From assembly GCA_003056205.1 (NCBI GenBank), contig LSNS01000011.1, positions 1-53,871 on the forward strand: a stretch of DNA of 53,871 nt, given 5' to 3'. The stretch is from Parcubacteria group bacterium M6-OD1-4. Lineage in GTDB: Bacteria > Patescibacteriota > Patescibacteriia > Patescibacteriales > UBA12465. The notes beneath the pieces were generated by a model. The model did not search any database. It saw only the letters and a program-made list of their open reading frames with translations, and was not told the origin of the DNA. This document shows, piece after piece, positions 17,043-19,266 of this stretch; the stretch's first letter is position 1, and each line of letters opens with the position of its first letter. A program made the position numbers and the translations under genes.

Positions 17043-17627
17043 CTATTTTTTAAATATTTTTTTTAAAGCCTGTTTAACCCGTTCACCGCTATCTTTAATT
17101 TGAGAGTCTACTAAACTTAAGGCTTGCCGGGCCTCACTGAGAGAATAGCCTAAAGACATTAGAGCATCAATTTCATCACTACTCGCCATTAAACTAAGTG
17201 GATCTAAAGATCCCGTCTGTTGACTGGAGCGAAGAACTTTATTTTTTAATTCCAATACTAAACGTTCCGCAGTTTTCTGACCAATTCCCGAAACTTTTGT
17301 CAGAAGATTAGCATCGCCCCGAATAATAGCTTCACGAATATCTTCTGTCGCCGCCATATTCAAAACACCCAAAGCTGATTTTGGTCCGATCCCAGAAACA
17401 GTTAATAGTAATTCAAATAATTCTAAATCTGCTAAATTCGGGAAACCATATAAATCACTAGCTTCTTCTCGCACCCGATGATGAATATAGACTTCTAACT
17501 CTTGCTTAATTTTTAGATCAGCTAAAAAAGTTTCGCCCATAAAAACTTGATAGCCGATATTAGTAACTTCAATAATTGCATAATTTAAAGTTTTATTAAT
17601 TATTTTTCCTCTTAAAAATGAAATCAT
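17043..17627 (-). CDS. ruvA: Holliday junction branch migration protein RuvA
   Basis: MISFLRGKIINKTLNYAIIEVTNIGYQVF, VSGIGPKSALGVLN, VSGIGQKTAERLVLELK; ATG at 17627 preferred over the TTG at 17636. Confidence 0.95.
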   Translation of the reverse strand: MISFLRGKIINKTLNYAIIEVTNIGYQVFMGETFLADLKIKQELEVYIHHRVREEASDLYGFPNLADLELFELLLTVSGIGPKSALGVLNMAATEDIREAIIRGDANLLTKVSGIGQKTAERLVLELKNKVLRSSQQTGSLDPLSLMASSDEIDALMSLGYSLSEARQALSLVDSQIKDSGERVKQALKKIFKK

Positions 17628-17629
17628 AC

Positions 17630-17658
17630 TTGACAAAAAAATTATTAAGTGCTAGTAT
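17630..17658 (+). promoter_or_regulatory. Sigma70-type promoter for the intergenic ncRNA
   Basis: TTGACA (17630-17635), 17-nt spacer, TAGTAT (17653-17658) with extended TGC upstream of the -10. Confidence 0.75.
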
Positions 17659-17664
17659 ATAGAC

Positions 17665-17955
17665 AAGAAAGCGGCATAAGTATAAGTCGCAAATAATGGT
17701 GGTATTAAACCACCGATAGAGCATGTGGGCAAAATCCCCACTCTGTCATCCGCAGTAAAGGAAGACAGGTTCCGCGTCAAAGTCGGTTATTATATTCTGG
17801 GACTTAAAGCGAAAGAAGTCGAAAAAAATGCTTGAAAAAGCCCCAGTCCCGACGAAGAGAAATGCTCAAAGCACCGCTATATGTTTTTAAAGATGATTGA
17901 TTGTTCTGCAGGACAATTAAATCTATAACTTTAAAAACTATAGCGGTTTTTATTT
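17665..17955 (+). ncRNA. Structured stand-alone RNA of unknown family, about 290 nt
   Basis: Promoter directly upstream, multiple hairpins (GGTGGT-ATTAA-ACCACC; GTGGG-CAAAATC-CCCAC; CTGTC...GACAG; GACTT...AAGTC; GTCGG...CCGAC with CTGGG...CCCAG), terminator at the end; visibly higher GC than flanking intergenic DNA. Confidence 0.7.
17873..17955 (+). terminator. Long-stem intrinsic terminator of the ncRNA
   Basis: ACCGCTATATGTTTTTAAAG / CTTTAAAAACTATAGCGGT inverted repeat followed by TTTTTATTT; inner hairpin ATTGTTC-TGCA-GGACAAT. Confidence 0.75.
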
Positions 17956-17967
17956 ATCCTGTAAATA

Positions 17968-19266
17968 TTAAACAACATCGATCTTCCTTCTCAGAACAGT
18001 TAAAGCAGGAATCTTTCCTGTTTTTTTATTTAATTTTAAAACAGCAATTTGACCGCCACCACCACCATGGGCTTCGCTCAGTTCTTCTCCACTGTGAGCA
18101 TCCCATAGTTGTTGAGACTGTACTTTAATTATATCATAATCGGGACGAATAATCTCTACTTCATCACCAACCTTGATTGTATTATGAACTTTAAAATATA
18201 TTAAATTAGCATCCTGGTCTAAATTTTTAAAAACTTTGGCATAACTTTTTAAAGGTTTAAGCACCTGTCCACAGAATTCCCAAGCACTACTATTATGAGC
18301 ATTCGCAATATTTTGATCAGCTTTTTCACCTAATAAAAACCCCGTGGTATAACCCCGTTGGACTAATTTAGTTTCTAACTCGGAATATAAATAATCTATT
18401 TCTTTCTGAAATTCTTGAGGCTTTATTTTTTTATTCAATAGATTTATAGCTCGACGATAGATGCCAACCACATTAGCTTGATAATAAACACTCTTTGCTC
18501 GACCTTCAATTTTAAAACTAGTGACTCCCGCGGCTTTCAATTCTTGAAGATGTTTAATTAAACATAAATCTTTAGAATTTAAAAGATAGGTGCCATGTTT
18601 TTCTTCCACTAATTCTAATTCTTCTTGATGATTGTCAGTTTTTAATTTAAATCTTTGAACATCATAGGGCCAACGACAAGGTTGAGCACAATCCCCTAAA
18701 TTAGCACTCCGATCAACAAATAATTTAGAGAGAAAACAACGCCCGGAATAGGCCATACACATGGCGCCCTGCACAAAATACTCTAATTCCATTTTCGGTA
18801 CTGCTCGATGAATTTCTTTAATTTCTGATAAAGTAACTTCCCGTCCTAAAATAATACGTTGTAAGCCTTGCCGAGCCCAAAACTTAACCGCTGCTAAATT
18901 TGTACAGTTCGCTTGAGTAGAAAGATGAATTTCGGCTTGAGGCCAAGTCTCCTGAACAACAAAAATAATTCCGGGATCAGAAATAATTAAAGCATCCACT
19001 TTTAGCTTTTTAAGTTCCTGTAAATATTGCGGTAATTTTTCAAAATGCTGATTATGAGCAAAAATGTTTAAAGTAATATAGACTTTTTTGTTTTGTTGAT
19101 GAGCTTCTTGAACAGCCTCTTTAATCCCTAATAAATTAAAATCATTAATTCGTACTCGCAAAGAAAAATCAGGAAGACCTAAATAAACAGCATCCGCTCC
19201 ATAAGCAAAAGCGGTGGCCATTTTTAATTTATTACCAGCAGGAGCGAGCAACTCTAATTTAGACAT
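17968..19266 (-). CDS. U32 family peptidase-like protein (RlhA/TrhP-type RNA hydroxylation family)
   Basis: LLAPAGNKLKMATAFAYGADAVYLG, MCMAYSGRCFLSKLFVDRSANLGDCAQPCRWPY, FKIEGRAKSVYYQANVVGIYR. Confidence 0.92.
   Translation of the reverse strand: MSKLELLAPAGNKLKMATAFAYGADAVYLGLPDFSLRVRINDFNLLGIKEAVQEAHQQNKKVYITLNIFAHNQHFEKLPQYLQELKKLKVDALIISDPGIIFVVQETWPQAEIHLSTQANCTNLAAVKFWARQGLQRIILGREVTLSEIKEIHRAVPKMELEYFVQGAMCMAYSGRCFLSKLFVDRSANLGDCAQPCRWPYDVQRFKLKTDNHQEELELVEEKHGTYLLNSKDLCLIKHLQELKAAGVTSFKIEGRAKSVYYQANVVGIYRRAINLLNKKIKPQEFQKEIDYLYSELETKLVQRGYTTGFLLGEKADQNIANAHNSSAWEFCGQVLKPLKSYAKVFKNLDQDANLIYFKVHNTIKVGDEVEIIRPDYDIIKVQSQQLWDAHSGEELSEAHGGGGGQIAVLKLNKKTGKIPALTVLRRKIDVV

Follow-up and report, generated by a model that had tools for sequence, protein, structure and literature searches.

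A candidate stand-alone small RNA gene between the peptidase U32 and ruvA genes of a Parcubacteria group bacterium

The stretch 17630-17955 on the plus strand of the window (the whole 53,871 nt of DNA analysed here, from the 0.78 Mb genome of Parcubacteria group bacterium M6-OD1-4) combines signals for the start and end of a transcript with an excess of fold stability, the lack of a convincing reading frame, the lack of an Rfam match and absence from relatives. These features suggest that it is probably a lineage-specific gene for a stand-alone small RNA, most likely one acting in trans; that the predicted RNA would be transcribed, be stable and act in trans is what we infer from them. The initial annotation had proposed a free-standing RNA unit of about 290 nt that has a promoter and a terminator of its own, and the sequence signals bear this out. 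The features of the locus are as follows:

17043-17627, minus strand: ruvA, probable start ATG at 17627 (the ORF lister chose TTG at 17636)
17630-17658, plus strand: promoter TTGACA-17-TAGTAT with extended -10 (TG), from sequence signals and the unit scan
17664-17955, plus strand: predicted RNA of about 290 nt, from the fold, with a presumed 5' end about 7 nt past the -10 box
17671-17690, plus strand: 5' hairpin H1, GCGGC/GUCGC, pair probability 1.0
17698-17714, plus strand: 5' hairpin H2, GGUGGU/ACCACC, pair probability 0.95-1.0
17719-17867, plus strand: predicted multi-branch core, closing helix GAGCAU/AUGCUC (17719-17724/17862-17867)
17725-17741 and 17743-17768, plus strand: predicted core hairpins
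17782-17853, plus strand: predicted third arm of the core, with two competing pairings
17873-17955, plus strand: long-stem intrinsic terminator (stem 17873-17947) and T run, from the fold and the unit scan
17968-19266, minus strand: peptidase family U32 gene, stop codon at 17968

Both neighbouring genes lie on the minus strand, so that their earlier description as divergently placed was mistaken; the next neighbours of the pair are a NIF3-like gene and a methyltransferase gene. An ATG start of ruvA at 17627 is probable, because the alignments of most relatives begin at residue 2-4 of the frame as listed. The -35 box starts 2 bases from this codon, and some dozen bases separate the end of the T run from the stop codon of U32; with both of its ends nearly touching a neighbouring gene, the RNA unit thus fills the gap. 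As had been noted, no plus-strand gene lies downstream, the next genes being on the minus strand. A cis-riboswitch or leader was therefore rejected, as no same-strand gene follows the stretch. In most members of the family that have both genes, U32 and ruvA are co-directional with a gap of about 0-40 nt. The exceptions with longer gaps are a genome of another genus (G018), two congeners that carry a palindromic insertion, and a further two family members in which the genes are separated by about 90-130 nt of A/T-rich DNA. Given that the genes nearly abut in most of the family and that the RNA is absent from 15 congeneric genomes, the 330 nt are an insertion specific to this lineage.

The promoter is of the sigma70 type, with TTGACA at 17630-17635, a 17-nt spacer and TAGTAT at 17653-17658, preceded by the TG of an extended -10. 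At the other end, the terminator stem is followed by the T run TTTTTATTT; it folds on its own with a z of -7.5, and its 3' arm is uninterrupted over 19 bases. When the window was scanned by a strict promoter-then-terminator criterion, 4 units were found, against a chance rate of 0.07 per window in whole-window dinucleotide shuffles, and the unit at 17630-17955, with its 19 bp terminator arm, clearly stood out as the strongest. Thus, the stretch has its own promoter and an intrinsic terminator on one strand, as is expected of an sRNA gene.

The predicted RNA (17660-17955) folds at -89.3 kcal/mol, as against -58.8 +/- 4.8 for dinucleotide shuffles, none of 500 of which was as low (z -6.4), and the excess persists when the terminator is excluded (17665-17870: z -4.3, 1/500 shuffles as low). 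The minus-strand fold is almost equally stable (z -5.3), as expected of any set of hairpins; in favour of the plus strand are the T run, which is found only 3' of the plus-strand stem, and the higher count of G-U pairs when that strand is folded (5 versus 2). The several clear hairpins of the initial annotation were recovered as H1, H2 and the two core hairpins. Its long-range pairing of GTCGG with CCGAC and CTGGG with CCCAG is possible, but it is only one of two nearly equal alternatives, with a probability of about 0.37 versus about 0.5 for the competing helix GGGACU/AGUCCC. The G+C content of 17665-17870 is 0.43, which is indeed above that of the other intergenic stretches of at least 90 nt in the window (0.11-0.32), the coding mean being 0.33; among the intergenic stretches of the window, 17630-17955 is both the highest in G+C and the most structured.

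No convincing reading frame was found on the plus strand: the longest frame wholly within the RNA has 36 codons and no ribosome site, the small internal frames likewise have no convincing one, and the only listed ORF that touches the RNA is a 75-codon TTG frame that begins in the terminator and enters U32 antisense. Nor did the stretch resemble a known RNA. No Rfam family scored above its cut-off anywhere in the window, a sensitive Rfam scan of a 401-base stretch with E up to 10 returned chance matches only, and a tRNA search found none. The family thus stays unrecognised, as first stated, and the Rfam models agree with the earlier failure to find tmRNA ends, an RNase P core or SRP features in the RNA. 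RNase P RNA (RF00010) and tmRNA (RF00023) do not match here, and the stretch has no tRNA-like ends; their real genes lie elsewhere in the source genome, above the family cut-offs (G000:C8:8556-8970 and G000:C6:35326-35709, respectively). 6S RNA (RF00013) and SRP RNA (RF00169, RF01854) gave no match to the stretch at E 10, and the predicted fold is multi-branched, in contrast to the 6S rod with its central bubble.

Searches for relatives of the RNA found none. BLAST against 98 relatives, against 381 genomes from the class, and against phage and plasmid records gave the RNA itself and short low-scoring pieces judged to be chance. A covariance model, built from the single sequence and hence with rough E-values, gave in 39 genomes of the family and 111 of the order only partial matches of 17-21 bits besides the RNA itself, mostly in A-rich or apparently coding DNA and likewise judged to be chance. 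In the 15 congeneric genomes, neither BLAST nor the covariance model found the RNA. Exact seed patterns, searched for in collections of viral sequences and of genomes, matched at counts near chance for 17-18-mers, with no match to the fold when passed through the covariance model; scanning named genomes for the ruvA protein gave nothing usable. The suggestion of a new RNA class with covarying homologs beside ruvA in related genomes was therefore not supported: neither sequence nor covariance-model searches found a homolog, and in nearly all relatives U32 and ruvA leave almost no room between them. Without a homolog there is no alignment in which covariation or selection could show. Since a new structured RNA class is recognised by homologs with covarying base pairs, to speak of one on a single sequence is not justified, and the stretch is a candidate small RNA rather than a class. 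It is unlikely, if worth bearing in mind, that the stretch is the first representative of a class of structured RNAs limited to a poorly sampled lineage of this reduced-genome group, belonging to a wider set of solitary RNA genes that turn over fast and settle beside ruvA.

For a stand-alone RNA gene, the following course may be envisaged. RNA polymerase would start at the extended -10 promoter, which lies on the strand opposite to ruvA some 37 bases upstream of its start codon, and would stop at the long-stem terminator, a dozen bases or so short of the stop codon of U32. The resulting transcript of about 290 nt would have a pair of 5' hairpins besides its multi-branch core and would most likely act in trans, using its unpaired stretches rich in A and G either to regulate as a small RNA or to bind protein as a scaffold. 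The same layout could also serve in cis: as a plus-strand unit antisense within the U32-ruvA pair, it might uncouple ruvA from U32, through RNA duplexes with transcripts reading from U32 into ruvA or through collision of polymerases against them. For this speak the co-directional and close arrangement of the two genes in most of the family, the occupation of the gap here by a strong opposing promoter and terminator, and a weak ruvA-directed promoter on the minus strand (TTAATA-18-TATACT, 17708-17679). The latter is, however, of chance grade (11 such found, with 5.0 +/- 2.5 expected), and pure antisense action or interference needs no internal structure of 200 nt with G+C well above background. 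Trans action is favoured here because there is more internal structure than interference would need, and a cis-acting device appears unlikely.

The stretch might alternatively be a small mobile or repeat-like element, such as a MITE or a comparable palindromic insertion, or what is left of one, happening to carry a promoter and hairpins. The insertion is indeed missing from 15/15 congeneric genomes searched, and two congeners (G007 and G015) have a different palindromic insertion upstream of ruvA. Yet it is present as a single copy in its own genome, neither terminal inverted repeats nor a clear target duplication was found at 17630-17955, and a directed layout from promoter to terminator is atypical of such elements, which makes this origin quite improbable. 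Even less probable, by a wide distance, is a very divergent housekeeping RNA. Its appeal lies in the SRP and 6S RNAs, neither of which was detected in this order: at E 0.001, RF00169 was found in 0/24 genomes and RF01854 in 0/13 (the source genome and order relatives), and RF00013 in 0/24 (the source genome and up to 23 order relatives), with control genomes positive for SRP in 11/14 cases and for 6S in 5. These RNAs of the order are thus either very divergent or missing. Against the idea stand the identified RNase P and tmRNA genes, the failure of the SRP and 6S models on the stretch and the lack of the RNA in congeners, where a housekeeping RNA would not be expected to be wanting.

The proposed stand-alone RNA gene resembles the intergenic sRNA genes of bacteria in its promoter, hairpins, Rho-independent terminator, lack of a convincing frame and position between protein genes. 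It differs from them in being rather long and multi-branched, with no known target, chaperone site or homolog. A parallel might also be struck with the raiA motif RNA, which is described as a free-standing, highly structured RNA gene reported from >2,500 species (PMC11706538); the RNA of the window is likewise predicted to be free-standing and highly structured, but it is without an Rfam match and without homologs found. Nothing relevant came from literature searches. Small RNAs seem to be little explored in reduced-genome (apparently CPR-type) bacteria, a limited literature search having found no study of them, and a solitary, strongly signalled RNA gene without a copy in congeners would show that genomes even of this small size acquire new RNA genes quickly.

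Other RNA-like units were seen near ruvA in this order. In the genome of another genus (G018), the 327 nt U32-ruvA gap holds two promoter-hairpin-terminator units unrelated in sequence to the RNA of the window; they stand in tandem between ruvA and U32 on the minus strand (L016, ~1495-1212), each with TTGACA...TATGCTAAATTAT and a terminator, the second being a branched RNA about 130 nt long (z -5.8). In G043, the RNA-like unit L013 918-1051 near ruvA has a strong promoter and a terminator stem that is both long and perfect; its three-way junction carries a GCAA loop, its z is -7.7 and no Rfam family matches it. It is followed at 1082-1415 by a second promoter-to-terminator unit with a tiny frame, MIATTATATSTS, that has a good ribosome site and looks like a threonine-rich leader peptide; no same-strand gene was seen directly downstream. 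The G018 units and L013 918-1051 share with the RNA of the window similar TTGACAAAA...TATGCTA promoters, structure, a terminator and a place adjoining ruvA, so that solitary RNA-like units do occur in this order, but their sequence similarity to it is not above shuffles. L013 918-1051 was tried as a homolog on account of an 18.7-bit model match and a similar GUGGGC..CCCC hairpin; since the reciprocal L013 covariance model misses the RNA of the window and the similarity is at the level of shuffles, homology is not claimed. The congeners G007 (L004) and G015 (L007) have in common a palindromic insertion of about 100 nt, GATTTCTGTGGC...ACGAAATCA, upstream at the ruvA start. Within the window itself, positions 1-337 of the minus strand carry TTGACA...TATGATAATTT and then a long hairpin of about 65 nt (z ~-4) in the leader of an ORF running off the contig.
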